DNA from: Candidatus Saccharimonadota bacterium
Lineage (GTDB): Bacteria > Patescibacteriota > Saccharimonadia > Saccharimonadales > Saccharimonadaceae
DNA: 40,643 nt
NCBI GenBank assembly: GCA_027492975.1
Contig: JAPUDS010000030.1
Coordinates: 1-40,643, forward strand
Direction: 5' to 3'
The notes beneath the pieces are model-generated. The model did not search any database and was not told the origin of the DNA. It worked only from the letters and a program-made list of their open reading frames with translations. This document shows positions 13,750 to 35,657 of the stretch, piece after piece. The first letter of the stretch is position 1. Each line of letters opens with the position of its first letter. Made by a program: the position numbers and the translations under genes.

Positions 13750-13795
13750 AGTGGGTAGATAAGCTAACTGTGACGCGGGGAGTATGGGAGAGAAA

Positions 13796-15145
13796 ATGAA
13801 CCACGCCATCTGGCAGGCAGTGCTCGGAGAGATCGAGACGTCCGTCTCGCATGCTGTATTTGTCACCTGGTTCAAACCGACCGAGGTTATCATCAGCGAC
13901 GATGGGACATTTTCGGTTGCTGTTTCGAATGTGTTCGCAAAACAACAGTTCGAGTCAAAATTTAACCCGCAGGTCATCGCCGCACTGAAGAAAAATGGTA
14001 TAGCAACCGAACGAGTCAACTACGTTATAAAGTCCGAACAGCCCAAACGGTCGCGGCAAGAAGCAACTCCTCTTGCCGAAACGATCGCCGCACGGCCGGT
14101 CAAAAAAACCGCTCCTACTACACCGGTCGGTGACGGCCTGAATCCCCGCTATACATTCGAGAACTTTGTGGTTGGGTCAAGCAACGACCTCGCATACGCA
14201 ACCGCCCAAGCAGTAAGCACTTCACCGGGAACAAAGTATAATCCTGTGTTTATTTACGGAGGAGCCGGACTCGGTAAAACCCATCTCATCCAGGCGGTTG
14301 GTAACGAGATAAAACGCCGCACACCAGCAAACCGCGTACTATATGTCAGTTCGGAAACGTTTGTTAACGAATTTCTCGACTATGTACAGTTCAAGAAAAA
14401 GGGGTTTTCTGACAAGTACCGTTCTGTGGATGTACTTATCGTGGATGATGTGCAGTTTATAGCCGGCAAACAAGCTACCCAAGAGGCGTTTTTCCATACC
14501 TTTAACCACCTCCATCAGCTGAACAAGCAGATTATCCTCAGTTCCGACAAGCCGCCCAAAAGCATCCCAACCCTGACTGAACGGCTTCGCAGCCGGTTCG
14601 AGTGGGGTATGACGATAGATATACAAATGCCTGACCTTGAAACCCGTATCGCTATCGTCCGTGCCAAGGCGGCTCTCAGTGGTGTTGAACTTGAGAATGA
14701 TACCGTGACCTACCTCGCGGAGAACATCAACACAAACATCCGCGAACTTGAAGGCGCTCTCAACCAGCTGCTTGCGTTTTGCGAGGTTCGTGGACTTTCA
14801 CCGGACGTCGATACTGCGGTCGGCCTTCTCGGCAACATACGGCAAACTAGGCCGCATCACATCACACCAAAGCAAATCGTCGATAAAACTGCTAAGTATT
14901 TCCGTATAGAGCAAAAAGAAATTCTCGGTGAAAAGCGAGATAAGTATATCGTTGTACCGCGTCAAATCGCTATGTACCTGCTCCGTAGCGAGCTTCACCT
15001 TAGTTTCCCGCGCATCGCCGTTGAACTTGGCCGCAAAGATCACACAACTGCTATCCACTCTGTTGAAAAGATCGAAAAAGCGATAAAACTCGACTTTGTG
15101 ACCCGAGAACAAGTAGCGGATATCCGGGAGCGTCTATATGAATAG
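13796..15145 (+). CDS. dnaA: Chromosomal replication initiator DnaA
   Basis: All DnaA domains are present: domain I (IWQAVLGEIETSVS), a short linker domain II (near 80-110), AAA+ domain III with Walker A GGAGLGKTH and Walker B VLIVDDVQFIAGK, then the domain IV helix-turn-helix signature GRKDHTTAIHSVEKI. Two ATGs are possible, 13784 and 13796; I choose 13796 because GGGAG lies 5 nt ahead, while the first has its purine-rich stretch only 1 nt away. DnaA opens the origin; boxes lie on both sides of the gene. Confidence 0.97.
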   Translation: MNHAIWQAVLGEIETSVSHAVFVTWFKPTEVIISDDGTFSVAVSNVFAKQQFESKFNPQVIAALKKNGIATERVNYVIKSEQPKRSRQEATPLAETIAARPVKKTAPTTPVGDGLNPRYTFENFVVGSSNDLAYATAQAVSTSPGTKYNPVFIYGGAGLGKTHLIQAVGNEIKRRTPANRVLYVSSETFVNEFLDYVQFKKKGFSDKYRSVDVLIVDDVQFIAGKQATQEAFFHTFNHLHQLNKQIILSSDKPPKSIPTLTERLRSRFEWGMTIDIQMPDLETRIAIVRAKAALSGVELENDTVTYLAENINTNIRELEGALNQLLAFCEVRGLSPDVDTAVGLLGNIRQTRPHHITPKQIVDKTAKYFRIEQKEILGEKRDKYIVVPRQIAMYLLRSELHLSFPRIAVELGRKDHTTAIHSVEKIEKAIKLDFVTREQVADIRERLYE

Positions 15146-15406
15146 GTGTGTATATGTTGTGAATAACCTGTGGGATAATCCTGTGGGTATGTATCCACAG
15201 TTTGTCCGCAGGTTGGATGCTTCGGGATGGATGCTGGTAGTTTTCCGCTTTTTATCCCAAACAGCCGCTCAACTATCCGCACAATATCAGCATGGTTCTC
15301 CACAGGAAAATTCATCGAAAAAACAGTGGTCAACTAGTAAGTTATCCGCTTCTCCACAGTCGTTATTATTACTATTATTGTTTATATATAAGAAAGGACA
15401 ATAACA
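15146..15406. other. Probable oriC (dnaA-dnaN intergenic region)
   Basis: The 261-bp gap contains a cluster of DnaA-box-like sites: GTATCCACA (15191-15199), TTCTCCACA (15296-15304), TTATCCGCT (15342-15350) and TTCTCCACA (15350-15358), plus TGTGGGATAA (15169-15178) in reverse. Directly after the last box and a 4-nt GTCG comes TTA-TTA-TTA-CTA-TTA-TTG (15363-15380), which fits the DnaA-trio pattern described for Bacillus oriC, then AT-rich TTTATATATAAG. The dnaN SD AAAGGA lies at its right end. Confidence 0.8.
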
Positions 15407-16498
15407 ATGAAAGTAACTGTTACCCAGGAAAACCTAAACCGAGCTCTTGCCGCGGTGAACCGAGTCGCGAGCAGTAAAACCTCCTTGCCTATCTTGTCGA
15501 ATATTCTCCTTCGAACAGAAAAAAACCGGCTGCTCGTAGCGGCGACAAACCTGGAGATAGCCTCGGTGTATTTTGTTGGCGCGAAGGTTGAAAAAGAAGG
15601 AACACTGACCGTGCCCGCGCGGCTTGTGAGCGAGTTTGTGAACAACCTCCCAAAAGATAATGTCGTTTTGAAGGTGGATGGAAGTAAGTTGGATATCGGC
15701 TCTGGTAACTACAAATCAACCATCAACGGTGTTGTTTCGGATGAATTCCCTACTCTTCCGACGATAACTCCAGCTCACACGGTTGTTCTGCCGAGCGGGC
15801 TTCTCAAGCAAGCTATCGCTCAAACGATCATCACCGCATCTCATGATGACACACGGCCGGTACTAACTGGTGTGTTGTGTCACAGTTACGCAGGTAAGTT
15901 GTATTTTGCAGCAACAGACGGCTATCGCCTCGCCGAACGGAGCTTAGTATCAACCGATGAAACTATAAAAGCGCTTATACCAGCATCTACTCTCCAGGAA
16001 GTTGCGCGGGTTATCCCAGATGATATCGAAGAAGTAACGATGTTACTGGACGACTCTCAGGTTCGATTTCTTGCGGGCGATGTTGAGATAACTAGCCGGC
16101 TCATAGATGGAAACTTCCCGGACTACCAGCAGCTTATTCCGAAAACAACTGAGATTACAGCGACACTGCAGACTGCGGAACTAGTGAGGATTACTAAAAT
16201 CGCCAGTTTATTTGCCCGTGAAAGCGGCGGTAGCGTGACTATCCACACCGACACGACGAACAAATCAGTTTCCATCCACTCTATAGCCTCGCAACTCGGT
16301 GAAAATACGTCGGAAGCTCAAGCGGAAGTTGACGGCGAAGGTTCAGTGACGCTTAACTCGCGATACCTTCTTGAAGCACTTGGTTCTGTCGAATCGCCCA
16401 CGATCACATTTGGCTTTAGCGGCAAACTTGCTCCCTGTGTTATCCGTCCGGTTGGCGACGACAGCTACCAGCACATCGTTATGCCGCTCAAAAGCTAG
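15407..16498 (+). CDS. dnaN: DNA polymerase III beta subunit (sliding clamp)
   Basis: 363 residues, the normal clamp length, with the three-domain beta-clamp pattern: MKVTVTQENLNRALAAVNRV at the start, LPILSNILL, a middle domain with TGVLCHS and ATDGYRLAER, and IDGNFPDYQQLIP. The C-terminus ends HIVMPLKS, matching the clamp-loader-facing end (usual ending M-P-[LIM]). It forms the ring that tethers DNA polymerase and other clamp-binding proteins. The SD AAAGGA is 8 nt before the ATG. It is 34 bp from recF. Confidence 0.97.
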   Translation: MKVTVTQENLNRALAAVNRVASSKTSLPILSNILLRTEKNRLLVAATNLEIASVYFVGAKVEKEGTLTVPARLVSEFVNNLPKDNVVLKVDGSKLDIGSGNYKSTINGVVSDEFPTLPTITPAHTVVLPSGLLKQAIAQTIITASHDDTRPVLTGVLCHSYAGKLYFAATDGYRLAERSLVSTDETIKALIPASTLQEVARVIPDDIEEVTMLLDDSQVRFLAGDVEITSRLIDGNFPDYQQLIPKTTEITATLQTAELVRITKIASLFARESGGSVTIHTDTTNKSVSIHSIASQLGENTSEAQAEVDGEGSVTLNSRYLLEALGSVESPTITFGFSGKLAPCVIRPVGDDSYQHIVMPLKS

Positions 16499-16532
16499 GT
16501 ACTAGTAAGGCTATACTATTATAATAACTAGT
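16499..16532 (+). promoter_or_regulatory. Putative recF promoter in the dnaN-recF gap
   Basis: TATAAT at 16520-16525 ends 7 nt before the recF ATG, and a second candidate TATACT is at 16512-16517. No SD is present, so recF can be made from a leaderless mRNA in addition to any readthrough from dnaN. Confidence 0.5.
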
Positions 16533-17573
16533 ATGGTTCTTGAGCGCATACTGCTGAATAATTTTCGTTCGTACACCGAGCGCGAGTTTACTTTTTCACC
16601 CGATGTAACGGTTATTACTGGGCATAATGGCGTTGGAAAAACAAATCTTCTCGAGGCGATATATGTTCTATATACGGGTAAATCATTTCGCGACTCAGAC
16701 GCAGATCTCGTAAGATATGATGAAGCGTGGTTTCGGGTGAGTGGAGAGTATGGAAATCATCACCGCGAGGTGCGGTATCAGCCCATGCAAACTGTTCGTA
16801 AAACTATCCTTCTCGACGATATGATAGAAAAGCGCTTTACATACCGTCATCAACTACCGATAGTCCTGTTTGAGCCTGACGATATGCTGATGATACATGG
16901 TTCACCGAGTCTTCGGCGTGCATATCTCGACGGGATACTTATAAAAACTGAACCGACGTACAGGGCGCAGCTTGCGCGGTACGAACGCGCGCTCCTTCAG
17001 CGCAACAATATACTTCGGCAGGGACTTTCGCTTGCAGCGCTGCGTGATGCGGTGTTTGTGTGGGATGTTGCTCTCGCGGAGTATGGCGCGCTAGTGCAGG
17101 CGGCCCGAATGCGTCTAGTTGGGGAACTAAATAAAACAATTTCCGAGGTGTACTCCAAAATTGCCGGCAAGAAACAGACTGCGTCCATACACTATGCTGC
17201 AAAAGTAAGGGGCGACAATCAACGTCTTGCGAGCGCGCTTGCTCACGCGCTAGAGCACGATCGATTTCGCGGCACAACAAGCGTCGGACCACACCGGGAT
17301 GATGTTGAGCTGCATATCAACAAACAACCCGCTAAACAGACCGCCTCGCGTGGTGAGACACGAACACTGGTACTTGCCCTGAAAGAACTAGAACTCGCCC
17401 ATCTTAGTACTATGCTCGAACAAACGCCGTTGTTTTTGCTCGACGATGTGTTTTCTGAACTGGATGAAAAGCGGCAAAAAACAGTGCTTGCGAATATGGA
17501 CGGTGTTCAGAAGATTATCACGACGACACACAACTCGGACAAAACTAATACGACAACAATCAGGCTAATCTAG
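16533..17573 (+). CDS. recF: DNA replication and repair protein RecF
   Basis: 346 residues with RecF architecture: LNNFRSY at the N-terminus, Walker A GHNGVGKTN, the QLPIVLFEPDD segment, signature SRGETRTLVLALKELEL and Walker B LFLLDDVFSELDEKR. RecF is an SMC-like ATPase that helps load RecA at gapped DNA. It is the third gene of the dnaA-dnaN-recF unit. Its TAG stop (17571-17573) overlaps the convergent gene's stop in a 4-bp CTAG, so no terminator separates the two. Confidence 0.95.
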   Translation: MVLERILLNNFRSYTEREFTFSPDVTVITGHNGVGKTNLLEAIYVLYTGKSFRDSDADLVRYDEAWFRVSGEYGNHHREVRYQPMQTVRKTILLDDMIEKRFTYRHQLPIVLFEPDDMLMIHGSPSLRRAYLDGILIKTEPTYRAQLARYERALLQRNNILRQGLSLAALRDAVFVWDVALAEYGALVQAARMRLVGELNKTISEVYSKIAGKKQTASIHYAAKVRGDNQRLASALAHALEHDRFRGTTSVGPHRDDVELHINKQPAKQTASRGETRTLVLALKELELAHLSTMLEQTPLFLLDDVFSELDEKRQKTVLANMDGVQKIITTTHNSDKTNTTTIRLI

Positions 17574-18088
17574 ATTTTTGTAACGGAAATTTTCGTGTAA
17601 CCGACATCATTATTTCGGTTGTGTGCACCGAGCGCGACATCAACTTTGAAAGACCGACCATCATTAACCACAATAGTAAACGTTTTCCATATTCCCCAGT
17701 CGTCACTAAAATCACTCACAGTATTATTTTTAATCGTCAACAAATACCCACCTTTGTCGACTGCTGGGTATAATTCTTCATTTATCGAGTCAACCGCTGG
17801 AATTTTATCCTCATTTGCCGGACTACCGTTTTTCATAGACATATCTTTTGCAAGCGCAGCGTTTATCGCGTTTAGGATGTAGCCTATTGTATAATCGGAG
17901 AAGCTGTTATATAGAATATCAACATTTGACACAATAACAGTTGCTTTCATTTCTGGCTCTTCGTGTGCAGGATTGTCACCTTCGAAAAAATGTGTCAATA
18001 AGGCGATGATGACTAATAATAAAATAAGACTACCTGCGCCGATAAGTAAGGCTAATTTTTTATGATCTCGTATCCACTCGTATAACAT
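17570..18088 (-). CDS. Small single-pass membrane protein of the T4SS-like operon (unknown)
   Basis: About 172 residues: a short basic N-terminus (WIRDHKK), one membrane span (LALLIGAGSLILLLVIIALL, about 13-33), then a soluble exported domain rich in Asp and Asn ending VGYTKISVTKI. AGGAGG at 18098-18093 lies 4 nt before the ATG at 18088; a GTG at 18091 is also possible but too near the SD. It is last in the operon that starts with PrgI, 8 bp after the triple-domain hydrolase gene. I do not recognise a family; a small accessory or pseudopilus-like part is possible. Confidence 0.7.
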   Translation of the reverse strand: MLYEWIRDHKKLALLIGAGSLILLLVIIALLTHFFEGDNPAHEEPEMKATVIVSNVDILYNSFSDYTIGYILNAINAALAKDMSMKNGSPANEDKIPAVDSINEELYPAVDKGGYLLTIKNNTVSDFSDDWGIWKTFTIVVNDGRSFKVDVALGAHNRNNDVGYTKISVTKI

Positions 18089-18096
18089 CACTCCTC

Positions 18097-20394
18097 CTAT
18101 AAACTTGATGCACTAACATCTGACAGTTTCTCATATGAATCGCGTAGTTCTGTAACAATTTCGGCAAATCGATGCTCCTTAGCGATCGGACAGAAATTCT
18201 TTGATGCCGTGCAAGTACCTCTCCCCCCTTCACCGGGATTTTTTGACTTATCTATATGAAGATGTGGAGCCGTGCCCCATGCTTCTGTTGAGTTACCAAC
18301 ATATGCAATAACAGTCCCCGCCTCCACAGTATCCTTATCCTTCACTTGAGCTCCGCGTGACTGGCTTAAGTGTTGATAGTAGTATGTATACCCTTCAGAA
18401 TCTATAATTTGTATACTAAGCGCACCCATACTGTCAATATGCGGTGTACCGATGACCTTTCCTGCCCGGAAAGCAAGGACTGGTGTTCCTTCGGGTGCGA
18501 AGATGTCGACAGCATAATAACCCTCGAAAACACTTTCGTGGTAGCGTCCAGACTTCCACTCGGTTGTGCCCGGATCATTACCCCAGGTGCGAACCTGAGA
18601 TTTTGTTCCTTGAAGTGGAAATACATAGTCACCAGCAGATGTTGAGCAGCCAGTTTGATTTGTGGTCGATGAGAGAGTTGATACGTCGGTGTCCAACTCA
18701 TCATCATCTTCATCATCCTCATCGATAACTTCATCATTATTATTGCTTGGCGAATCAATTCCGGCAAAATCGTTAAATACACGTGTAGCGTTATCTTTAC
18801 GCTTAGACACACCACCGCCACCAGAGCGTTCATATAGTGTATCCCAGCGTTCAGCTGCTTTCTGTACGCCAGAGACATCGTTTGTAGCCGACTGAAACGC
18901 CGAGTCTTTAACGACAGCAGATTCCGCATTTTCAAGTTCATAGACCACGAATTCCAGCTGAATCTTCAAATCTTTCCAGTCAGTATCCTTGCTTGCGGCA
19001 AACTCCTTTAGACCGGTTATCGTCTTCGCTTTCGGGTTTGTCCATCTCGTACCGAGCCACTGTACTATACCATACGGTGATGTATAGTCAGGTTTTAAGT
19101 CATAAGTGTGGCCGCCCGACTCAGACATAAAATTACCAACAGCTCCCGCCGCCTGGGCTTGTGAAAGAGGCCGGCTGTTATTTGTTGATATAGGTGTCGT
19201 GATGAGGAAATTATAAGCTTTTTCTGCGTTCGTATCACCGATGAGCGACGACGAGCCTGTTCCACTATTGCAGCAGACTACCCCTCCGCTGGTATAAAGC
19301 ATGTTGTTGAGAGCTTTATCCGCGTTTGTTCGGTTCAGCGACAACGGGTCTGTGTTTGTAGTAGTGACACAGTTCATGTTTCCACCGCTGCCACTAAGGT
19401 CGTTAAACACAGCTTTAACTGGATGGTGGTCGGACGCGCAACTACCTAGTCCATCTCCCTGAGAGACGCAATCAAATGTTTCGTAATACGACGGCGCGGA
19501 TACATTTTTGTAAAAAATTTGGTCGATCGTGTTAGCTGATTTTTTACTGTTGCCGATACTTGCGATGGATTCGTTTTGTTTTATTGCGGCGTCGTCGTGT
19601 GCTACACCATACCCATACTCAGCAACTGTGTCGTAAAAAGCCTTCCACTGAGAACGCTTAGCTTTCTTGTTGTTTCCGGTTGCAGCGTTCATGTCACCGG
19701 TGATAATCACGGGAACAGTTTCTGATTTGAGTTTATTCATCAGGTTTTTAATTTCCATTTTTCGATGGTTGGCGGCAGTTTCTTCGCTCTTAGTGGCAAG
19801 GTGAACGTTTGCTACGATAAATGCCCGGCCGCTCCTGTCGGTAAAGTGTACTACATGGGCGAATCTAGTACCTCCATTGACGCTTGCGCTGTGGCCTTTG
19901 TGATACTCTGGTTTCGTATTGCTCGGCGTGTCTATGTCGACGATTTCTTGACTAGTCATCGTAACTACACTCGAATTCCATACTATCGTGACCTGATCCA
20001 TTCCATATTTTTTAACCTGGGTACTTTCTTTCCATACATCACCAGTTGAGTTGAGCGCGCTCAAAAGGTCTCCACGGCAATCCTCCCAGTTATGTTCCTG
20101 GAGGCCAACAACATCGAAGCCAAGTGATTGAATATTGGCAGCAGCAGATTTCATTCGTGTTTTATAGCTTTTGCCACCTTTATCGAAACAGTGAAGGACG
20201 TTATACGAACCAACAACAAGACCAGCGGTTGTCATATTGAGCGCTGTTGAGGTAGATATAAGAGGCTGAATAAGGGTGGTGAAAGAAAATACAATACTCA
20301 AAGCAATGAGACGCCATGAAAAGCGCATCGCTGGTAGGCGAAGCGGGTTGTTTTTAAAACGTAGTACCGATGGTTTCATGCTTATCTCTTTCAT
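18097..20394 (-). CDS. Secreted triple-domain protein: EEP nuclease + phage-type lysozyme + M23 peptidase-like
   Basis: The N-terminus has a basic stretch and a hydrophobic signal/anchor (24-50). Residues 57-335 form an endonuclease/exonuclease/phosphatase domain: SYN (N65), QE (E100), NVH (H198), GDMN (D234, N236), DQ (D291) and SDHH (D322-H324), so all key residues are present. Residues 392-545 resemble phage-tail lysozyme: SQAQAAGAVGNFMSESGG with catalytic-type E425, and YGIVQWLG. An Asp/Glu-rich linker (553-570) follows. Residues 588-715 resemble M23 endopeptidase: D630, QHL (H675) and HLH (H711, H713), but the first zinc ligand position (HxGxD) is Tyr626, so activity is uncertain. The start is either 20394 (touching the upstream stop as TAAATG) or 20379. 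It is in an operon with VirB4 and the M15 peptidase; likely acts outside the cell. Confidence 0.85.
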   Translation of the reverse strand: MKEISMKPSVLRFKNNPLRLPAMRFSWRLIALSIVFSFTTLIQPLISTSTALNMTTAGLVVGSYNVLHCFDKGGKSYKTRMKSAAANIQSLGFDVVGLQEHNWEDCRGDLLSALNSTGDVWKESTQVKKYGMDQVTIVWNSSVVTMTSQEIVDIDTPSNTKPEYHKGHSASVNGGTRFAHVVHFTDRSGRAFIVANVHLATKSEETAANHRKMEIKNLMNKLKSETVPVIITGDMNAATGNNKKAKRSQWKAFYDTVAEYGYGVAHDDAAIKQNESIASIGNSKKSANTIDQIFYKNVSAPSYYETFDCVSQGDGLGSCASDHHPVKAVFNDLSGSGGNMNCVTTTNTDPLSLNRTNADKALNNMLYTSGGVVCCNSGTGSSSLIGDTNAEKAYNFLITTPISTNNSRPLSQAQAAGAVGNFMSESGGHTYDLKPDYTSPYGIVQWLGTRWTNPKAKTITGLKEFAASKDTDWKDLKIQLEFVVYELENAESAVVKDSAFQSATNDVSGVQKAAERWDTLYERSGGGGVSKRKDNATRVFNDFAGIDSPSNNNDEVIDEDDEDDDELDTDVSTLSSTTNQTGCSTSAGDYVFPLQGTKSQVRTWGNDPGTTEWKSGRYHESVFEGYYAVDIFAPEGTPVLAFRAGKVIGTPHIDSMGALSIQIIDSEGYTYYYQHLSQSRGAQVKDKDTVEAGTVIAYVGNSTEAWGTAPHLHIDKSKNPGEGGRGTCTASKNFCPIAKEHRFAEIVTELRDSYEKLSDVSASSL

Positions 20395-23300
20395 TTATGG
20401 ATCATAGGTAAAATGGGCGCCATCCCACCCTTGTTTTTGATATACATCATCCCAGAATCCGTAACAGCGATTATTGGCTTCCCCATCAGTTGCGTTTTTA
20501 TATGTGCTGGTATTGTCATGCACACAAGCGCGCATCCATTTCTCACTTTGGTCATAAAAATCTATCGAGTATCCCATCATATGATTTGAATATACGGCAG
20601 TTGAGGTCCAGTTTCCAGGGATGGCCGTAATCCAACCCGGACAGACGCTCGGACGCTTCCCGAGGTTTCCTGGTTTCATGACTATAGAGCATTGTTCGTA
20701 AAGGCTTCGGTATCCAACAGACGCGGAAAGCTTAACACCGTCTTTTCCGGCTTGCTCGACTATCGTGGCGAGTGATTTGGCAGCTTCGGAGTTAACGGCG
20801 ATTTCGGTGATACTGCTGGCGGAGGTGCCCTCGTAGCGCGGATCCGACCAATGCGGCATCGTGCTCATATCTGTTCCTGGGATCGCGCACAGAGTGATGG
20901 ACTTTTGATTACCGCTTCTGTCCCAGCCCCTCGTTATTTTATCGATAATATTACCGTTAGCACAGCTACCCGTAGCCGTTGCGATGCTGGCACCACCAGC
21001 ATCAGGGTTACACTGTGCGGTTTCTCGGATGGATTCATCCATCGAACAGAGGATACTTTCTGCTACGGTACTGTCAATCTTACAGTTGTCAAAACCTTCA
21101 TACTCCGTAGTATCTATACCAAACCAGCTTGCGACCGTATCACCGGCGTCGATTGTGGCGCATGTTTCACCACTACTCACCTTTGGATTTACGGGAGCAT
21201 TTAATTCAGCATCGGTCATACCGATGGAAACTGCGTTAAGCACTGCTTCCGGACTCGTGAACGAGGCTGCACTGGTTTTATTTGTAACGATATCTGCAAG
21301 CGAGCTTGGCGTACTTTTGACAAGACCAAAGAGGCTTGCAACTGCATTTGAAGCGGTCGCTGCCATGCCGCCACCGAAAGAAGTCCTGCTTATTAGACGA
21401 GAGGTGACAGAGTTTCTCGCATCGGGGCTGAACAAAGCATACAAAGCCCCTTGACTCTTATCGTACTCGGTTTGTTCAGCTATGTATCGCTGTAGTTGGA
21501 GGGATCCAGTTTTAGAATCGATTTCATGTAACCCAAGCGAAGTCTCGGCGTAGCGGTTTCCGGCATACACCGAACCGTTAAGTAGTATATCGAGGAGTTG
21601 GTTGCCGCCGGAAAGCATACTGACATTGAGTCCGAAGACATTCAGCATGGTTTGCATTGCAAACTGAGCCATACCACCAAGTATTTGCTCAACATTTGCG
21701 TTGATATCTTCGACAGCTTTTTCTCCGAGTCCAATTTTAGCTACGGTAGAAGCTACATTAAAGGCGCCCTGGATCTGACCGATGATAGCATCCATAGCAA
21801 GGCCCATTATCGCGTCGTCTATATTGTAGATAAGACGGGCAAGTAGATAATTAGGACTGAAGTCCCATCCAAACTGCCATCCGTTCCAGAAATTGAGTAG
21901 GGTGTTGCCACCCATGATGTCGAGCATTACCTTGACGGCCTCGGGATTGGTTTCGTTGAGTTTTTTGTACAGAGGCTCGCCAGTCTTGTCGCAGTCTGTT
22001 TGCCAATTTTTATCGATACAGTTCCACCCAGAGGAGGTTTCAACCCCATCGAGAAATGGCGCATAGTAGTTAATCAAGTCAGTATCTAGTGTTCCGAGTT
22101 TTGCTTGAGTTGCTATGCCGCCCCACTTTGAATAGATACTACCCATAAGGATAGCCGCCGGCGTGGCGATTGCCCGAGCCACCTTGCCATTCTCAACATT
22201 CTTATATGCCCAGTGAGCAAACACTACGGCGGTTGCACCTGCAACAACCCAGCCGTAGACCGGGATGGCTTTCGTACCAATTTTTTTAGCAACAGTCTCG
22301 CTTACGTTGAGCCCCAGTTTTGTGCCGATCTCGAGCACCACCTTTGTGATGGCGCCACTGGTTGTCTCTCTGATTGTCGTACGAGCTACGTCGGCAGTCT
22401 CTGTCAACGCCTCGCGAACACTTGTTTTTGACGCCGCCTTTGCCGAGTCCGAGGCGACCTCGCCAGCTTCATTGCTCAATTGTCTTTCTGCGGTACCCAT
22501 AACATCAGTTGCTTGGTCTATAGCTCTACCCTGAGAATCTAAACTATCCGCGACATCGTCAAGTGCTGCGGTTTTCATTTTCTCTTCAGGTGTTGCTGCG
22601 TCGTTTGTTTTGGCGGTCCCAAAACGTTTCACGCCAAGGTAGCTCATCATCCACCGAGTCATTTTTCCTCGCACAAGGAATCCCCATACCCCCAAATCTT
22701 CTTTGATGATAGATTTCATGATCTTTCTTGTTACGGGGGCCTCAGCAAGAGCAGCTTCGAGATCATCAGCGTTTTTGAAGGCTTTTTTTAGAAGCTTTTT
22801 GGCCTCGTCGGTGTTATCTCCGATGAGTCGTATGGATACCGAAACCACTTTTCCACCTTCTTTGTTAGCTACAAATGTAATTCCCTTTTTAGCGAGCCGC
22901 TCCTCAAACTTATTGGTCGTCATTGTTTTGGCGATACGACTAATAAGGCTACCGCCTTTAACAAGATTTCGATCCTCAACTCCAATATTGTGAAATATAG
23001 CCTGAAAAACAATTTTCTGAGTTCGTTTCTCTATATACCCTTCGATACGCCCCATGCCTGTGCCAGTGACGGCTTCGATTATCCCTTGTAGCTTCAGGGG
23101 TGCGGCCAATGTAAAGAATCCACCAAGCAAAATGATAACGCTCCCCCCGCCTGCAACAGCTCCTTTGTGGCGCGAAAACCAGTTTTTCTTCTTCGCTGGC
23201 GGTTCGTCCGACATGAGACCGCGGTTTTTTAGGTATCCGAAGATATCTTCATTCGCATCGGAATTACCAGAGGGGCCATTCGCGTTTTGTTCAAGGGCAT

Positions 23301-23409
23301 TTATGCTTTCGCGTGAATCGTCGCTCTCCGGTTGGTTTATACCGGAGTCAGAGACGCTGTCGGCTTCCTTGCCCTCTGGTGTCGCTTCCTCTTTTGTGTC
23401 AAGCACCAT
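20395..23409 (-). CDS. Large T4SS-associated membrane protein with C-terminal VanY/M15-type carboxypeptidase domain
   Basis: 1004 residues. Residues 1-80 are hydrophilic and acidic, then a KKK-flanked span (about 84-108). The middle holds Ala-rich helical stretches and further hydrophobic segments (for example VYGWVVAGATAVVFAHWAY). The last 110 residues carry the M15 metallopeptidase pattern: SNHMMGYSID (H943, D950) and WDGAHF (H999), the zinc-binding set of D-Ala-D-Ala carboxypeptidases. Several Cys in the C-terminal region suggest disulfides in an exported domain. AAGGTGAT overlapping the virB4 stop acts as SD. The family role of M15 is cutting peptidoglycan peptides; here it may remodel the cell's own or a partner's wall at the secretion channel (inference). 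Confidence 0.8.
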   Translation of the reverse strand: MVLDTKEEATPEGKEADSVSDSGINQPESDDSRESINALEQNANGPSGNSDANEDIFGYLKNRGLMSDEPPAKKKNWFSRHKGAVAGGGSVIILLGGFFTLAAPLKLQGIIEAVTGTGMGRIEGYIEKRTQKIVFQAIFHNIGVEDRNLVKGGSLISRIAKTMTTNKFEERLAKKGITFVANKEGGKVVSVSIRLIGDNTDEAKKLLKKAFKNADDLEAALAEAPVTRKIMKSIIKEDLGVWGFLVRGKMTRWMMSYLGVKRFGTAKTNDAATPEEKMKTAALDDVADSLDSQGRAIDQATDVMGTAERQLSNEAGEVASDSAKAASKTSVREALTETADVARTTIRETTSGAITKVVLEIGTKLGLNVSETVAKKIGTKAIPVYGWVVAGATAVVFAHWAYKNVENGKVARAIATPAAILMGSIYSKWGGIATQAKLGTLDTDLINYYAPFLDGVETSSGWNCIDKNWQTDCDKTGEPLYKKLNETNPEAVKVMLDIMGGNTLLNFWNGWQFGWDFSPNYLLARLIYNIDDAIMGLAMDAIIGQIQGAFNVASTVAKIGLGEKAVEDINANVEQILGGMAQFAMQTMLNVFGLNVSMLSGGNQLLDILLNGSVYAGNRYAETSLGLHEIDSKTGSLQLQRYIAEQTEYDKSQGALYALFSPDARNSVTSRLISRTSFGGGMAATASNAVASLFGLVKSTPSSLADIVTNKTSAASFTSPEAVLNAVSIGMTDAELNAPVNPKVSSGETCATIDAGDTVASWFGIDTTEYEGFDNCKIDSTVAESILCSMDESIRETAQCNPDAGGASIATATGSCANGNIIDKITRGWDRSGNQKSITLCAIPGTDMSTMPHWSDPRYEGTSASSITEIAVNSEAAKSLATIVEQAGKDGVKLSASVGYRSLYEQCSIVMKPGNLGKRPSVCPGWITAIPGNWTSTAVYSNHMMGYSIDFYDQSEKWMRACVHDNTSTYKNATDGEANNRCYGFWDDVYQKQGWDGAHFTYDP

Positions 23410-23426: not shown

Positions 23427-25349
23427 TTACTGAACTTGATCCTGAGGAGTCGGAGGCTGTTCGTACATAGTTTGCGCTGCTTGAGCCTGCTGTTGCTCTT
23501 GGTATGCCTGCATCTGCTGAAGTTGCTGCGGGTTTGTCGTGATAAGGCTTTGCTCTGTTGGGCTCGGGACGATCTGTAGATGGACATGGTTCTGACCGGC
23601 AAAAAACAGCCCTTGTCCGACCGGAAAGTTCGCCAGGCGCTTTCGCTCCTCTTCTGTCAGTTTAAAGACGTCCGATAGTACATCGACGGCGCTGGTCGAC
23701 TGTTTGAGAAGTAGCTGCATAGAACTGTTTGCGACGATAGCGCGGCCCATCTTGCTGCCCATAAAGTCTTCGACATCCTGGGTGATGGTTGTAAGACCGA
23801 GGTAGTATTTGCGGGCACGTTTTGCGAGAGAGAACATAAAGTTTGCCGAGTCGTCGTATTTCATAAGCTGCCAAGCCTCGTCAACGATAAGCATGCGTTT
23901 TTTCTGCTCGGTGCGGATCCGGTTCCATATGTGACTCAGTACTATATACATCGCAACTGGTCGGAGCTCGTCCTCGAGGTCGCGTATGTTGAACACCACC
24001 ATGGTGTTGTTGATATCGATGTTGCTCTGCTGGCTGAAAATGCCGGCAAAGGTACCGGTGGTGTATTTGCGGAGGCGCTGCGCAAGTTGCGGACCACTAC
24101 CGCCCATGTGAAGCAGTGTCTCGTAGAGATCGTTGATAGTTGGTGGCAGTGAGTTGTGCGTAAGTGGGTCGGACGTGATGCCAGCTCTAGCGTATGTGTC
24201 GATAAGCGCCTGGTCAAGATCGGCTTCTTCGGATGGACTGAGCGTCGGCAACATAGCTGAGCCGCCGCCCTGAATTTGTGCACTGGCCCCGCCGAGCATG
24301 AGTCGAAGCAGACCGTGCATAGTAACGAGGTTGGCGCGAAGAGCGTCGTCGGCCTCATCGCTGTCGATAACGCGTGGCAAGTCGAACGGGTTTATACGTA
24401 CATCCGAGTTGAGGCTCAGGCGAATATAACTACCGCCAACGGCGTCTGCGAGCTTCTGGTACTCGTTTTCCGGGTCGATGATGAGTATGTCCGCCCCCAT
24501 CATCATAGTGCGTAGCGCCTCAAGCTTCACGGTAAATGATTTGCCGGCGCCGGACTTTGCAAACACGACCATGTTGGCGTTTTCAAGAGAGAAACGGTCA
24601 AAGATGACGAGGCCGTTGTTATGCATGTTTATGCCGTACAGGATGCCGTTGTTTTGCGTCAGGTCAGCAGAAGTAAATGGAAAACTTGTACTGACGGCAC
24701 CAGTATTCATATTGCGACGAATTTGCAACTGGTCGGTCATCTGCGGGATGGTGCTGTTAAGTCCCTGCTCTTGTTGACTAGAGGCAACCTTGCTTAGTAC
24801 GAGCTGTTGACCGAGGATGGTTTCGACTTTGTGCTGAACAAAGTTGAGCTCGTCCAGGCTTTCGCCGTAGAGGGTGATGTATAGCCCGTAGCGGAAGAAC
24901 CGTTCGGCGCCGACCTGGAGCTGGTCGCGCAGTTCTTCGGCATCCTGTATGGCCGCTTCGAGTGCTGGGTCGCGAACCTTACCGTGTTCGGCGTTGATAG
25001 ACATGCTAGCTTCAAGCTGACCAACTTTTTTGCGCAAGTTGTCGAGGACCACCTGGCTTTCAACTGGGTAGATGAACATACTGACGTCGATAACTTCGTC
25101 AACGTTGATAATACTACTCAGCCAGCCCGTATAAATCTGGCGCGGATAGCCGTAGACATAAAGTGTTCGGCCGTACCGTGTTCCGAGCCGGAAGTAGCTG
25201 CTCTGAATTTCTATAGAGCTCGGTGCGATGATATCGCGGAGTGTCGTGATGCCTTTGACAAATTCAGCCTCTATCTCCTGCTGCTCGCGTTCGCGTTGCT
25301 GCTGTGCGATGTCTATGGCACTCTGTTTTTTACCACCAAACAGTCCCAT
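23427..25349 (-). CDS. virB4: VirB4/TraC-family conjugation ATPase
   Basis: 640 residues. The N-terminal part (1-230) is the VirB4 N-domain; Walker A is AKSGAGKS (264-271), followed by DILIIDPENEY, and Walker B is MLIVDEAWQL (486-495), then ITQDVEDF and the NFPVGQGLFFAG C-terminal region. The tail is Gln-rich. VirB4 ATPases power pilus assembly and substrate transfer in type IV secretion systems. The ATG touches the upstream stop (TAGATG) and has GGGAGG about 7 nt ahead. No VirD4, VirB11 or relaxase gene is visible in the window. Confidence 0.93.
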   Translation of the reverse strand: MGLFGGKKQSAIDIAQQQREREQQEIEAEFVKGITTLRDIIAPSSIEIQSSYFRLGTRYGRTLYVYGYPRQIYTGWLSSIINVDEVIDVSMFIYPVESQVVLDNLRKKVGQLEASMSINAEHGKVRDPALEAAIQDAEELRDQLQVGAERFFRYGLYITLYGESLDELNFVQHKVETILGQQLVLSKVASSQQEQGLNSTIPQMTDQLQIRRNMNTGAVSTSFPFTSADLTQNNGILYGINMHNNGLVIFDRFSLENANMVVFAKSGAGKSFTVKLEALRTMMMGADILIIDPENEYQKLADAVGGSYIRLSLNSDVRINPFDLPRVIDSDEADDALRANLVTMHGLLRLMLGGASAQIQGGGSAMLPTLSPSEEADLDQALIDTYARAGITSDPLTHNSLPPTINDLYETLLHMGGSGPQLAQRLRKYTTGTFAGIFSQQSNIDINNTMVVFNIRDLEDELRPVAMYIVLSHIWNRIRTEQKKRMLIVDEAWQLMKYDDSANFMFSLAKRARKYYLGLTTITQDVEDFMGSKMGRAIVANSSMQLLLKQSTSAVDVLSDVFKLTEEERKRLANFPVGQGLFFAGQNHVHLQIVPSPTEQSLITTNPQQLQQMQAYQEQQQAQAAQTMYEQPPTPQDQVQ

Positions 25350-26216
25350 CTAGAATCCTCCCGTCTGGTTTTGGCTTGGCGGCACTCCGGCACCCTTTTG
25401 TGTGTACGTACCAACAAAAGCGTTTGGATCTGTGATAGCTTCACGGATGGCAGTATCTGGGTTGTAAGTGTTGTAGTACAGCGTACTGAGTTCATTCGTG
25501 TCCAGTTGCCGTGCCTTGACTCCCATCTGGAACATACCTGACATGACGGCGTTGGCTCGGTTGGACAGCTCATCTTTCGCCTTCGTATAGGCCGCTTGGT
25601 CTATCTTGATGTGCTGTTGCTCCTGTGGTTTTGCGAAAGCCGCAAAGATACTTTTGCTCGCGGCGGCTAAAGCGCTGAGATCACCGGTCGCAAAGTATGG
25701 CACGATGATATAGAAATGCTTGTCCATGATGTTTGTCTCGCGGGATAAGTCGTCTATGAAGTTTATGTAGTCTTCCATGAGCATGCCGAGCAGCATGTTG
25801 TCCTGCGAACGACGCAGGTCAACTAGTTTTTCTAAGTAGGGACCGATATCGACGCGCTCAGAGCGGATGAAAATCTGCACCGGGAAATAAAGCGAGTTCA
25901 GGAAACTCTGATAACTATACTCTACCCCTTCTCGTTCACGCCCGCTCATGAGGTCAAAGTTTATCGACTCGCAGGTAACAACTGCTCGGAAGCTACCGTC
26001 GTTCATGATGAGCATGCTTTCGCGGATCTCGGAGATGAGTAGCGTGTTTTGCGTGCTATTTGGGTTGCGTGCAGGGTTTTTTGGCGTTTGCTGTGCGGTT
26101 CCGGCCTGACTTGGAGAAGCTCCCGCCTGATTTGTGGCAGCAGCTGGTAATGGCGGCAATGTTGGCGCCGTGCCGGGTTGGGCAGGTGTTGGTTGTTGTT
26201 GAGTATTTGGATTCAT
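25350..26216 (-). CDS. VirB4 N-terminal-like / TraC-like T4SS protein
   Basis: 288 residues. The first 55 residues are a low-complexity Pro/Ala/Gln/Thr tract. The rest (from LISEIRESMLIMNDGSFRAVV) looks like the N-terminal domain of VirB4/TraC proteins without an ATPase domain: no Walker A is present. It also has FIRSERVDIGPYLEKL and YIIVPYFA, typical of that fold. Directly upstream of virB4, it probably forms the partner half of a split VirB4 or a separate inner-membrane platform part. No clear SD precedes the ATG at 26216, and the 32-bp gap after prgI holds nothing else. Confidence 0.75.
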   Translation of the reverse strand: MNPNTQQQPTPAQPGTAPTLPPLPAAATNQAGASPSQAGTAQQTPKNPARNPNSTQNTLLISEIRESMLIMNDGSFRAVVTCESINFDLMSGREREGVEYSYQSFLNSLYFPVQIFIRSERVDIGPYLEKLVDLRRSQDNMLLGMLMEDYINFIDDLSRETNIMDKHFYIIVPYFATGDLSALAAASKSIFAAFAKPQEQQHIKIDQAAYTKAKDELSNRANAVMSGMFQMGVKARQLDTNELSTLYYNTYNPDTAIREAITDPNAFVGTYTQKGAGVPPSQNQTGGF

Positions 26217-26248: not shown

Positions 26249-27241
26249 CTAGCGGAGCGAAACGACGACTTCCTCATCTTCGAGATGTTTTTTGTGGAGC
26301 CGCTCTGCCTCACGAGCGATAGTACTGATCGACAAGTCTTTACTTGTTGCCAGTCTCATTATATCAGGAGAGAGGGTTTCTTCGCTAGGTGCTTGTGCTT
26401 GTTTTGCTGGCGCTGCTTGTATGGCGGGCGGTTGTGCTGGTTGGCTGGGTGTGACATCTTGGCCGCCGGGTCGAATGACTTTTTGGTGAATGGCGGATGG
26501 ATATGGGTTATATACCACATGATCTGTCGGGTCCGGAGAAACAACGCTTTGTACTGGGTCGGGAGTTGCCGGTTCTTGCGGTGGTACTGGAGTTGTAGCG
26601 GTCGGTGCTACCCGGGGCTGAGTTGGCTGCTGAGCAGCGGCTTGTAGATTTGCCTGCATGGTCTGTAGCATTTCCTGTTTTCTCGCCTGGTCGCTTTCGG
26701 CGATCATCGTATCGATGTTTTGCGAAACTGCACCGCCGTTATCCAGTATATCTTCCGCGCTTTGGGCTTCCGCAACCAGCGTGTCACTGAGACTTAGGTT
26801 ATCAAGCGGAGATGTCAGCCCCCGGCTGGCCCAGCCGCCGGTGTCGACTATCTGCGAAAGATACCGTAGGCGCTGTGATGCTTCCTGCCCAGAAAAATCC
26901 TTTAGTGCCGGTCCTTCCGCAACTTTCAGCGCAGTTATCTCAACCAGACTTATATCTCCTTCCGGATCCCATAGCCTGACCCGCGGCTTCAAAAGGAACC
27001 GGACTATAGCCGTTAGGTACGTTTCCATGGGCTGATCTTTCTTTAGCGGCAGCGCAAGTACCAAGAAGAACAGCGCTATCGGCAGTGGTATGATAACAAG
27101 CCCCCAAAACAGTCGGTACAGTCCGTAGGCGAGAAACAGCGCAAGCGCTGTCACGATGAGGTAGATAAACTGCCGAAACGAAAACGGCCCGAGGAGCTTG
27201 TCCTCCGCCTCAACATCCTGTGGTACTTTATACGTTGCCAT
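26249..27241 (-). CDS. prgI: PrgI-family T4SS membrane protein (VirB3-like)
   Basis: Residues 1-95 match PrgI: MATYKVPQDVEAEDKLLGPFS (an amphipathic start), then two close membrane spans (FIYLIVTALALFLAYGLYRLF and LVIIPLPIALFFLVLALPL) and KDQPMETYLTAIVRFLLKPR. In Gram-positive T4SSs PrgI stands in for VirB3 next to VirB4. The remaining 230 residues are an unusual long cytoplasmic extension, Pro/Gln/Ala-rich, ending in a charged helix (ISTIAREAERLHKKHLEDEE). It is first in the operon down to 17570. There is no SD; an extended -10 (TGCTATACT) ends 8 nt before the ATG. Confidence 0.85.
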   Translation of the reverse strand: MATYKVPQDVEAEDKLLGPFSFRQFIYLIVTALALFLAYGLYRLFWGLVIIPLPIALFFLVLALPLKKDQPMETYLTAIVRFLLKPRVRLWDPEGDISLVEITALKVAEGPALKDFSGQEASQRLRYLSQIVDTGGWASRGLTSPLDNLSLSDTLVAEAQSAEDILDNGGAVSQNIDTMIAESDQARKQEMLQTMQANLQAAAQQPTQPRVAPTATTPVPPQEPATPDPVQSVVSPDPTDHVVYNPYPSAIHQKVIRPGGQDVTPSQPAQPPAIQAAPAKQAQAPSEETLSPDIMRLATSKDLSISTIAREAERLHKKHLEDEEVVVSLR

Positions 27242-27258: not shown

Positions 27259-27333
27259 TGAGCGGGTTGTTAAAAAAATGCCACCGTACCGCATCAAGAT
27301 CTCACCTCAGGAGGCTAGTTGGCTATTCTCAGG

Positions 27334-27339
27334 TATAAT
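27334..27339 (+). promoter_or_regulatory. -10 element of the toxin gene
   Basis: TATAAT ends 6 nt before the ATG at 27346, with no SD between, so the toxin mRNA is probably leaderless. No good -35 is seen. Confidence 0.55.
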
Positions 27340-27345
27340 ACGGAT

Positions 27346-27693
27346 ATGAAATGGGAAATTGAATACTATACTACACCGTCAGGACAAGAAGTTGTCAGGG
27401 ATTTCATAGATAGCCTACAAGCGGTTGACCAGGCAAAATTAGGCCATAACCTCGATCTTCTTGAGCGATATGGCTACGATCTTGGCATGCCTCATGCTAA
27501 ACCGCTTAGGAATGGCCTTATGGAGTTACGGGTGCGTAGTGGTCGTGGCAGGCAGGAGGTGCGTATCTTTTATGTTTTTGTTAAAGATCGTCGAATCTAC
27601 CTCTTGCATGGTTTTGTTAAGAAAAGCCAAACTACTCCAAAAAAGGAACTAAATATTGCCAGATCTCGTCAAGATGAGTTGAAAGCACTGTAA
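27346..27693 (+). CDS. higB: RelE/HigB-type (Gp49-like) toxin
   Basis: 115 residues fitting the phage-derived Gp49-like/HigB mRNA-interferase family: the N-terminus WEIEYYTTPSGQEVVRDFIDSL, then LGMPHAKPLRNGLMELRV, then VRIFYVF and IYLLHGFVKKSQTTPKKELNIA. These enzymes cut mRNA at the ribosome and are blocked by an XRE antitoxin, whose gene follows 73 bp downstream. The frame is open to 27319, but I start at 27346 where the family sequence begins and a -10 sits 6 nt upstream. The toxin-first order matches higBA systems. Confidence 0.88.
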   Translation: MKWEIEYYTTPSGQEVVRDFIDSLQAVDQAKLGHNLDLLERYGYDLGMPHAKPLRNGLMELRVRSGRGRQEVRIFYVFVKDRRIYLLHGFVKKSQTTPKKELNIARSRQDELKAL

Positions 27694-27713
27694 CACAAAA
27701 GCTACAACCCCTC

Positions 27714-27743
27714 TTGACATCATTGTTGCATATATGATACACT
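27714..27743 (+). promoter_or_regulatory. Antitoxin gene promoter
   Basis: TTGACA at 27714-27719 is a consensus -35. With an 18-bp spacer the -10 is TACACT (27738-27743) preceded by TGA as an extended element. It lies in the 73-bp gap, so the antitoxin can be made independently of the toxin. Confidence 0.6.
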
Positions 27744-27766
27744 CTATCTGAGGAGAAGATAGTACA

Positions 27767-28039
27767 ATGACTACCTGGAAAGAACACAAGCAAGAGCTCA
27801 TGAAAAACCCGAAGTTCAAGGAAGCTTACGAAGCTCTTGAGCCGGAATATCGTTTGGCGAGTGAACTCATCGCCGCTCGGCTAAAAAGCAAACTTACCCA
27901 AGAAGAGCTGGCTCAAAGAGCCGGCGTCAATCGAACAGTTATCGCCCGTCTTGAGAGCGGCATAGCTAATCCGACCGTCAATACAGTTAATCGTATCGCT
28001 AGTGTGCTTGGTAAGCAGATCAAACTTGTCAGTAGCTAG
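27767..28039 (+). CDS. higA: XRE-family antitoxin
   Basis: 90 residues with an N-terminal helical segment (TTWKEHKQELMKNPKFKEAYE) and a Cro/CI helix-turn-helix: LTQEELAQRAGVNRTVIARLE then ANPTVNTVNRIASVLG. HigA antitoxins bind the toxin and repress the operon. GAGGAG lies about 12 nt before the ATG, unlike the SD-less toxin gene, which suggests stronger, separately controlled antitoxin translation. The pair sits between the two leftward T4SS-like gene groups. Confidence 0.9.
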   Translation: MTTWKEHKQELMKNPKFKEAYEALEPEYRLASELIAARLKSKLTQEELAQRAGVNRTVIARLESGIANPTVNTVNRIASVLGKQIKLVSS

Positions 28040-29472: not shown

Positions 29473-31221
29473 TTACGTCCCTGCCAAAATTATTTTTGCA
29501 ACTAGCGTACAGCCATATATGATAGCCATAATTATAGGATACATGGCGAGTAGTTTGAGTAGTGACGACCACCATTTTTTGAACAGTGGCTCCGTATTTG
29601 GCAAAATCATCGCGGCTATAGCGACCGGTGCGATGATGATGAGCAGAACTATGAGGACTTGTCGTATCGCGATCCCGACGAAAAATCCGAGAGTTGCCAT
29701 CGTTCCCGTGACGATGATCGGCAAGACGAAAGCTATGAGACCCAAAAATGCAAGCGCGGTTAGAGCCACCAGAGCACCACTGAGCGTTAGTATCCACGCC
29801 CCTATTTGATTTACGATATCGGTGGTTTTAACGGTTGCATTTTCAGAGTCAGGGAGTTGTGTCATCCCAACGTCGATAATTCCCTTGACGGCACCACCGA
29901 TGATGTTAAATATATCCACCAGCACACCGCAGATAAAGAACGACAAGTTTATGAGTATAGCTGCCGCTATGATACGTGGCAACATCTTCTTTATACCGTA
30001 AGCACTCAGCCCGACAGAGGTCGCCTGGGAAAATATAACGATCAGGAACGCAACGACGAGCAAGAGGTTTGCTATACCGACAAGTAGAGACCAGATTTCC
30101 TGTAGCGCTTTTCGTGGTTCCTTTTCTGTCATCATGCTGACCCGCAACATACTTTCTATGCTGTTTGCCATACTTTTGTTCAAGTTATCCATGACGGTAA
30201 CTATAGGACAGAGTAGCCATCCGAGGGCTCCGCCAACGCAGCTGGCTTGAGTACTTCCTTGGCACATACTTGTCTCTTCGTCCCAGGTGCCTCCGTTATC
30301 TGCACAAGATTGTTTATCTACGGCTTTTTCTGTGGCATCCGCGGTTGTGACCGCGTTGTCTTTATTTTTATTATTCCAATCATTGACGTCTTTAGCCACA
30401 TCATTCATTGCCGTCAGCAGCTCACCGCAGGTGGTGTTTTGGCCATTGTAGTCGTATTTTTGAATCGATTTTTTGGCTCCACCGATAGACGTATCGTATT
30501 GTCCCGTGCCAACACTACTGGGCGTGAATCCGACTTGGACATCTTGGGTTTTAAAGGCATCGCCATCTTTTACTAATTGTGTCTGTGTTACGGTATCATC
30601 CCCGCTATTTGGTGGTATATGTATGGTACAGTTCTTTGTGAAAATAGTGAGATAAGCGTAGAAACGTGCGGCGGTAATTTGCTGATTTTTCTTGATGATA
30701 TCTTGGGCTTTATCGTCGCCACTTATGACATATATAGTGTACTCTCGTGCTTCGCTGCAAATATTGGGTCCGGGATAGTTTCCGGTGCAGACTGGATCTT
30801 GGTGACCAGTAGTGGTTGTGTACCCTATAGCACGTAGGTAGTCTCCAGGCGTTGCATACCCCAAGTTGCTCGCAGCCGAATTGACACTGCTTGCGTCTGA
30901 GCAGCTCAGCTCGCCCGAGTCTGGCGCCAGCCATCTCCCAATATACACCCCGCGGTTTGCCGTACCTCCTTCTGCGAAGATTGTGGCATAGTCTCCCCGT
31001 ATCGACTTTTTGTCTTGCATCTGAGCGAGACAATCTCGTAGGAAGATAGCGCTGTAGTATTTGTTATTGATTGATCCTAAAAAAGAAGCCGCGTCGGCAT
31101 GAGCTGTCGGGACCAAGAGGGGCGATAGTGTGTTTGTAGCAAGTAACAGCGTGGCGGCGGCACCAAAAACAACACGACGCATACGCCCTGTTTGTCGATA
31201 CCTAGTGATTACCTTGTGCAT
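29473..31221 (-). CDS. VirB6/TrbL-like polytopic T4SS protein
   Basis: 582 residues. A signal-like N-terminus (RRVVFGAAATLLLATNTLSPLL, with an A-x-A-type AHADA site near 43) precedes a large exported domain with several Cys (about 45-330, for example CADNGGTWDEETSMC). The C-terminal 250 residues hold about six membrane spans, such as SLLVGIANLLLVVAFLIVIF, IIAAAILINLSFFICGVLV, LSGALVALTALAFLGLIAF and VLIVLLIIIAPVAIAAMI. This layout fits VirB6/TrbL channel proteins of Patescibacteria-type T4SS loci. Upstream there is an extended -10 TGGTATTAT ending 10 nt before the ATG and no SD, so its leader is very short. Confidence 0.78.
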   Translation of the reverse strand: MHKVITRYRQTGRMRRVVFGAAATLLLATNTLSPLLVPTAHADAASFLGSINNKYYSAIFLRDCLAQMQDKKSIRGDYATIFAEGGTANRGVYIGRWLAPDSGELSCSDASSVNSAASNLGYATPGDYLRAIGYTTTTGHQDPVCTGNYPGPNICSEAREYTIYVISGDDKAQDIIKKNQQITAARFYAYLTIFTKNCTIHIPPNSGDDTVTQTQLVKDGDAFKTQDVQVGFTPSSVGTGQYDTSIGGAKKSIQKYDYNGQNTTCGELLTAMNDVAKDVNDWNNKNKDNAVTTADATEKAVDKQSCADNGGTWDEETSMCQGSTQASCVGGALGWLLCPIVTVMDNLNKSMANSIESMLRVSMMTEKEPRKALQEIWSLLVGIANLLLVVAFLIVIFSQATSVGLSAYGIKKMLPRIIAAAILINLSFFICGVLVDIFNIIGGAVKGIIDVGMTQLPDSENATVKTTDIVNQIGAWILTLSGALVALTALAFLGLIAFVLPIIVTGTMATLGFFVGIAIRQVLIVLLIIIAPVAIAAMILPNTEPLFKKWWSSLLKLLAMYPIIMAIIYGCTLVAKIILAGT

Positions 31222-32648: not shown

Positions 32649-33701
32649 ATGTATAAGCCAAAGTATACCATCACTGATGAGTTGCTTCGTAAAGTGGCGG
32701 AGATCGAAGCTCTCCGTACTAGCGTTGACTCAAGCTATATTTTGCCGGAGCGCGAAATAGAACTACGCTACAGAGCGACAGTTGAGGCTACACACAGTTC
32801 AACATCTATCGAGGGTAATCCGTTGAACCTCAAACAGGTTCAGCAAGTGCTCGGCAGCTCAGAACAGCTTACTCGACACCAGTATGCTGAAATAGAAGTC
32901 AAAAACTATAAAAAAGCACTGGATTTTATTGACAAGCGAAAGAATAGCAAGAAGCCAATCACCGTGGAAGACATCATGGCGATTCATGCGCTCGTCACAA
33001 ACCACCTACTGCCGGACGAAAAGGTGGGTAAGCTGCGTCAAAATCCTATCTATATAGCAGACCACAACGACACCACCGTGTATACCGGTCCGGAGGCGGA
33101 TACGGTAGGCGTGGAGCTTGATCGTCTGCTCGACTGGCTAGCGAATTCGCGTGACGTTCACCCGGTGATTGCGGCGGGTATCCTGCATTTTCAGTTCGTA
33201 TCAATCCACCCATTTGCCGACGGTAACGGTCGCACGACACGGTTGTTAACTGACCTGCATCTGGGGATACATGACTACAATTTTCGTGGCTCTTTGGTGC
33301 TCGACTCGTACTATTCTGTTGATAAGGCGGCGTATTATGAGGCGCTTAGTTTGTCTGATACGTACGGTGGTCGCAGATCTGCCATACTCAACCCGTGGCT
33401 CGAGTATTTTGCGAACGGTTTTTTATCATCCGCCAGGCTACTGACGGCAGAGGTGGTGGTTTTGTCTAGCCTTGCGGCAAATGTGACGAAGAGTAAACTA
33501 CCAGCAGATGAGGCGGATATATTGAGCTACGCCAGACAGTTTGGCTCGATAACACTCTCAGAAGCCCAGGCCATACTGCCCAGTATGTCAAAGAGAACCA
33601 TGCAGCGTCGTCTTATGGGGCTTGTTAAGAACGGATATCTTATGGTTCAGGGCAGCGCGCGCGACACCAGGTATGTCTGGAAAATAAAAGCTGGACAGTA
33701 A
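32649..33701 (+). CDS. fic: Fic-family protein (class II, with C-terminal winged helix)
   Basis: 350 residues. The Fic active site HPFADGNGRTTR (187-198) is complete (FIC proteins transfer AMP or similar groups to target proteins). The inhibitory helix motif SSTSIEGN at residues 50-57 fits the (S/T)xxxE(G/N) pattern in class II Fic proteins, where the motif precedes the Fic domain, so the protein should be self-inhibited through E55. The C-terminal 70 residues (ILSYARQFGSITLSEAQAIL, then MSKRTMQRRLMGL) look like a winged helix, which may bind the repeats upstream of its own gene. It is bracketed by T4SS-like genes on the left and the pilin-like cluster on the right. Confidence 0.92.
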   Translation: MYKPKYTITDELLRKVAEIEALRTSVDSSYILPEREIELRYRATVEATHSSTSIEGNPLNLKQVQQVLGSSEQLTRHQYAEIEVKNYKKALDFIDKRKNSKKPITVEDIMAIHALVTNHLLPDEKVGKLRQNPIYIADHNDTTVYTGPEADTVGVELDRLLDWLANSRDVHPVIAAGILHFQFVSIHPFADGNGRTTRLLTDLHLGIHDYNFRGSLVLDSYYSVDKAAYYEALSLSDTYGGRRSAILNPWLEYFANGFLSSARLLTAEVVVLSSLAANVTKSKLPADEADILSYARQFGSITLSEAQAILPSMSKRTMQRRLMGLVKNGYLMVQGSARDTRYVWKIKAGQ

Positions 33702-33743: not shown

Positions 33744-33763
33744 CTATACATAAGAAGGCAAAA

Positions 33764-35263: not shown

Positions 35264-35264
35264 T

Positions 35265-35654: not shown

Positions 35655-35657
35655 GTC

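Follow-up and report, generated by a model that had tools for sequence, protein, structure and literature searches.

A predicted exported protein joining an EEP module to lysozyme and M23 domains in the dnaA-linked T4SS cluster of a Saccharibacterium

The window, i.e., the whole stretch of 40,643 nucleotides analyzed (contig JAPUDS010000030.1 of a Candidatus Saccharimonadota bacterium), contained a T4SS gene cluster convergent with dnaA–dnaN–recF (13784–17573, plus strand), a conserved neighbor which fixes the slot by synteny. On the minus strand, the genes followed each other in the order PrgI-like protein (26249–27241, Pfam), VirB4 N-terminal half or TrsD-like protein (25350–26216, NCBIfam match below the cut-off), VirB4 ATPase (23427–25349, Pfam P-loop_TraG), a 1004-aa membrane protein with a C-terminal VanY/M15 carboxypeptidase domain (20395–23409, Pfam), a protein with EEP, lysozyme and M23 domains (18097–20394) and a single-TM protein of 173 aa (17570–18091, identified by hydropathy, no Pfam match), which closes the run ahead of recF. 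Because these genes share a strand and are separated by gaps of 0–32 bases, the co-transcription of the EEP-lysozyme-M23 gene with the PrgI, VirB4 and VanY/M15 genes is likely. Upstream of the run, a polytopic VirB6-like protein with nine hydrophobic segments and homologues in relatives was encoded at 29473–31221 (minus strand), and a series of small, mutually similar membrane ORFs at 33716–36791 (plus strand) formed a T4SS pilin-like gene cluster, the three tested ORFs matching PF18895. That one cluster encodes both VirB4 and a PrgI-type protein, as detected with Pfam, is a trait of the MPF-FATA T4SS.

Other genes were interspersed on the plus strand. A Gp49-like (HigB-type) and HTH pair, likely a toxin–antitoxin, was located at 27319–28039 between the PrgI gene and a 335-aa gene of the T4SS run. 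The interval from the T4SS run to the pilin genes held a Fic/DOC family protein (32649–33701), and a zinc-ribbon phosphoribosyltransferase, ComF-like by reading, was encoded near these pilin genes at 37430–38119.

The ORF at 18097–20394 (minus strand) had no internal stop and encoded 765 aa. A single hydrophobic segment was detected near residue 28 by hydropathy; the region of residues 21–51 approximately (20242–20334), with a helix at residues 19–40 in the AlphaFold2 (AF2) model, suggests a signal peptide or anchor and a predicted Sec export. The Pfam matches, all above the gathering score, were Exo_endo_phos (residues 62–323, E = 7.9e-8) within an EEP module of residues 52–333 (19396–20241), Phage_lysozyme2 (PF18013, residues 389–543, 18766–19230, E = 8.7e-24) and Peptidase_M23 (residues 627–716, 18247–18516, E = 1.2e-16). 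The putative catalytic residue of the lysozyme, E425, lies within a GN..ES motif and was kept across relatives. The preliminary description had read an exported 765-residue protein with a phage-tail-type lysozyme from the DNA; the ORF with exactly these ends, the predicted N-terminal signal or anchor and the HMM matches to all three domains agree with it. The full-length AF2 model was of moderate quality (pLDDT 69, pTM 0.45), so the domain arrangement is not fixed by the model.

The closest known kind of protein is PrgK/VirB1, and the 765-aa protein is of this type plus an EEP. In PrgK of pCF10, a muramidase with relatives among phage-tail lysozymes stands between a degenerate LytM and CHAP (PMC11323569). 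The two proteins share the character of a multi-domain T4SS wall enzyme, extracellular in PrgK and predicted to be so here, with a phage-tail-type muramidase and an M23/LytM domain whose active site is altered; PrgK differs in its order, LytM-MUR-CHAP, and in having no EEP module. The preliminary description knew of no earlier account of the combination; its unusual part is the EEP module, whereas the lysozyme plus peptidase part is already known from the PrgK/VirB1 type.

The M23 assignment, also made in the preliminary description, stood as a domain match but not as an intact peptidase site. D630, H675, H711 and H713 were retained, with the HxH motif (H711, H713) intact, but the HxxxD motif was altered, with Y626 in the place of the first zinc ligand (Y626-x3-D630). 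The domain therefore appears real as a domain, while its zinc binding is doubtful. Several relatives from the same slot showed a displaced HH pair instead of the usual ligand, and H619 might serve here as a substitute displaced ligand; it sits in a low-confidence loop of the AF2 model, which does not fix its position.

In the EEP module, the catalytic set was complete (N65, E100, H198, D234, N236, D291, D322 and H323), as the preliminary description had stated. The AF2 model of this part, built from a 32-row alignment, reached pLDDT 82.5 and pTM 0.87, and a Foldseek comparison with the PDB matched EEP enzymes at E of about 1e-13. The same residues were retained in almost every one of about 30 related modules, which share only 16–34% identity with the EEP of the 765-aa protein. 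Such conservation bears on the idea that the EEP and the altered M23 are non-catalytic and control or target the muramidase, as LytM and CHAP do in PrgK. The missing canonical zinc ligand of the M23 domain would fit it, as would the degenerate LytM of PrgK, which together with CHAP reduces muramidase activity (PMC11323569). The retention of catalytic residues at such low identity is nevertheless hard to explain without catalysis, and we regard this reading as unlikely.

Which phosphoester the EEP might cleave was approached through its relatives. A search of the PDB with the single EEP sequence of the 765-aa protein matched no solved structure, and profiles alone gave matches. The EEP profile was closest to 3g6s (1.5e-37), 3mpr (1.3e-31) and the mannosyl-6-phosphatase BT3783 (4c1r, 5.4e-31), followed by nocturnin, CCR4 and TDP2, with DNase I more distant (3.5e-5). 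A profile of the five lysozyme-slot EEPs alone gave a similar list from which DNase I was absent, and the Foldseek ranking broadly matched that of the profile search, placing BT3783, 3g6s and 3mpr among the closest also by fold. These three differ from the EEP studied here in being single-domain Bacteroides structures, and we know of no wall hydrolase fusion or T4SS link for them. The family models pointed elsewhere: the best NCBIfam match of the EEP of the 765-aa protein was MnuA (1.7e-9), at 38 bits far below the family cut-off of 185 bits, and across 32 EEP modules the weak NCBIfam matches were xth (ExoIII; 14), MnuA (4) and ExeM/NucH (3). MnuA shares with the module the character of an EEP-type surface enzyme of minimal nucleotide-salvaging parasites, the mycoplasmas; to our knowledge, it has no wall hydrolase domains. 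EEP relatives in Actinobacteria, Bacteroidales and a Neobacillus carried fn3, RCC1, BACON or F5/8 domains, and no wall hydrolase domains were detected on those examined. BACON and F5/8 hint at glycan contexts and do not settle the substrate. No EEP relatives were found in the viral contigs searched. A housekeeping ExoIII was rejected as an explanation of the module, since a separate 268-aa EEP is encoded in the genome.

The distribution of the module was followed in a non-exhaustive sample of relatives, the family in the genome counts being taken as Saccharimonadaceae. VirB4 was present in 139 of 148 family genomes, and most family loci examined kept the fixed order VirB4, membrane/peptidase protein, lysozyme protein and recF. 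Downstream of VirB4, 55 further family loci mostly encoded a protein of approximately 1000 aa, a lysozyme-type protein, small genes and recF or dnaN. A first scan of the genome contigs with the full-length protein gave no match, and the plasmid search returned only separate lysozyme or M23 matches and no fusion. The EEP was matched in 4 of 393 order genomes by a single-sequence search and in 22 of 324 family genomes (10 of 60 genera) by a 12-domain profile, which was built from T4SS-linked copies and under-counts stand-alone EEPs. In about 18 of these 22 genomes, belonging to eight genera, the EEP lay within the dnaA-linked T4SS cluster.

Five genomes of four genera (G000, G034, G046, G110 and G145) carried the EEP in the lysozyme slot. 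These fusions began with the EEP, followed by the lysozyme and then, at the C-terminus, by M23, by weak NlpC matches or, in G034, by a stretch that looked CHAP/NlpC-like by eye. An assembly artefact was rejected, as the EEP plus lysozyme arrangement recurred in the same slot of four other Saccharibacteria genomes. In most EEP-bearing genomes, the membrane-protein slot held between one and three EEPs, with M23 after most of them; one such case, G203, came from another family. EEP and M23 proteins were also present in a second T4SS-like cluster of four genomes, two of them also with a weak NlpC match. At these loci (L036, L037, L126 and L132), the cluster comprised a Walker-A ATPase, a ParA-like protein and the EEP plus M23 protein, with little Pfam recognition; L037 also encoded one polytopic and one single-TM protein. 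In G034, a 634-aa ORF was present on the opposite strand at the expected position of the membrane-protein slot (L035, 7023–8927, minus strand). In another family of the order, EEP proteins that weakly matched the LPXTG anchor were encoded at L200 (6279–9071, minus strand) and L201 (8507–10252, minus strand), one of the two bearing a tyrosine-phosphatase domain.

In the EEP tree, the lysozyme-slot EEPs fell in at least three separate places, with the 765-aa protein and that of G034 forming one well-supported pair. The slot protein of G027, from the same genus, had a lysozyme and C39 without an EEP. Judged from the tree places and this absence, the EEP module in the T4SS slots is optional and repeatedly acquired, apparently having entered the lysozyme slot at least three times. 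Most slot proteins in relatives, that of G027 included, had no EEP, so the module is not needed for the core role of the machine.

The two slots were also occupied by other modules. Phage_lysozyme2 was detected in 45 of 56 lysozyme-slot proteins, the other modules of this set being CHAP (8), GDSL (7), C39 (6), NlpC (6), M23 (4), GH73 (3), SLT (3), GH3 (2), M15 (2), Amidase_3 (2) and single phage-lysin domains. The 44 membrane-slot proteins contained M23 (14), VanY (8), NlpC (3) and amidase (1). In UBA2951/UBA2952, GH43 replaced the EEP at the N-terminus of the lysozyme-slot protein (L123, 6132–8366, minus strand, where Pfam was applied; its near copy L129, 6276–8510, minus strand). Arabinans are frequent substrates of GH43 enzymes, and such an activity would suit certain actinobacterial walls. 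GH3 preceded the lysozyme in two other proteins (L146, 6958–9336; L168, 6894–9893; both minus strand). No nuclease family was found among the other identified modules of both slots; the rest were wall enzymes or GDSL esterases.

The dnaA-linked slot cluster corresponds to the T4SS cluster that is essential in S. epibionticum (PMC10633639), in which the peptidase/lysozyme genes just downstream of virB4 were also reported essential (PMC12102498). Both clusters are of the gram-positive conjugative type, include pilins and have peptidase/lysozyme genes following virB4, the S. epibionticum cluster (SEML1_0006–0019) being compared by its published description (PMC10633639); it differs in that the texts covered report no EEP or nuclease. 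Likewise, the texts searched on the Saccharibacterial T4SS cluster describe lysozyme/peptidase genes and no EEP or nuclease module. S. epibionticum is reported to lack a coupling protein and a relaxase (PMC10633639), and most Patescibacteria clusters have no relaxase (PMC12102498). What the Saccharibacterial T4SS does has been described as completely unknown (PMC11665869).

Competence can be dispensed with in S. epibionticum; for the T4SS, a role as nucleotide route was proposed (PMC11665869), and Saccharibacteria are without nucleotide biosynthesis (PMC10633639). On this dependence and this proposal rests the argument that the EEP is a surface or secreted nuclease at the T4SS mouth, cutting nucleic acid that the host releases when its wall is opened and so feeding a nucleotide-dependent bacterium, with mycoplasma MnuA as the analogue. 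The rank of MnuA as best NCBIfam match (at its sub-threshold score), the preponderance of nuclease families among those matches and the tandem EEP copies all favor it, while the much greater distance to solved DNase I than to mannosyl-6-phosphatase-type EEPs, the lack of nucleases among the other slot modules and the absence of the EEP from the majority of genomes, whose nutritional need is presumably alike, do not. Such a feeding role may apply, although we hold it to be short of probable. It shares its wall-opening part with our preferred reading and differs in the EEP substrate. Of the wall-opening and DNA-digesting device proposed in the preliminary description, the secreted T4SS wall enzyme was upheld, whereas DNA digestion was not, as the relatives tested do not point to DNases in particular. 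The domains being real and the fusion recurring in other Saccharibacteria, the refuting checks set in that description, on fold and on conservation in related genomes, did not overturn it.

The EEP fold is known from toxins and T4SSs deliver proteins, hence the EEP could be an effector translocated into the partner to damage DNA or lipids. In nearly all fusions, however, the EEP precedes the wall-enzyme domain instead of standing at the C-terminal end, the place of the toxin module in polymorphic toxins, no candidate immunity gene was apparent at the locus and the hydrophobic N-terminus suggests Sec export, which makes an effector very unlikely.

Taken jointly and leaving the substrate aside, the protein is probably a wall-opening enzyme with an active EEP, i.e., a VirB1/PrgK-type enzyme of the dnaA-linked Saccharibacterial T4SS with an added phosphoesterase module. 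It would reach the contact zone by export; there, the lysozyme domain would cut glycan strands, the M23 module would bind or cut peptides, or perhaps, given the missing zinc ligand, only regulate, and the EEP would hydrolyze phosphoesters in the same zone. The wall concerned may be that of the partner or the bacterium's own during machine assembly. As the structural relatives and the NCBIfam matches point in opposite directions, there is only a slight lean towards phosphate-carrying polymers in the wall of the actinobacterial partner as the EEP substrate, an argument made by association with the neighboring modules; nucleic acid comes close behind, and a lipid or another substrate seems rather unlikely.

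The EEP may be one of several interchangeable modules tuning the Saccharibacterial T4SS. The broadest form of this reading is possible but tentative, and we would not call it probable: a combinatorial kit for breaching walls, tuned to the host and borne by an essential T4SS, with the EEPs as a new class of wall-polymer phosphoesterases that would detach phosphate-linked glycopolymers before the lysozyme and peptidase cut peptidoglycan. Single EEP, lysozyme and M23 domains are open to assay without cultivation of the organism, and whether the EEP acts on nucleic acid or on the phosphoesters of the wall would distinguish feeding from wall breaching. Across relatives, the wall-enzyme slots of this T4SS, whose cluster is essential in S. 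epibionticum, are modular, with EEP modules recurring in approximately eight genera with their catalytic residues kept.
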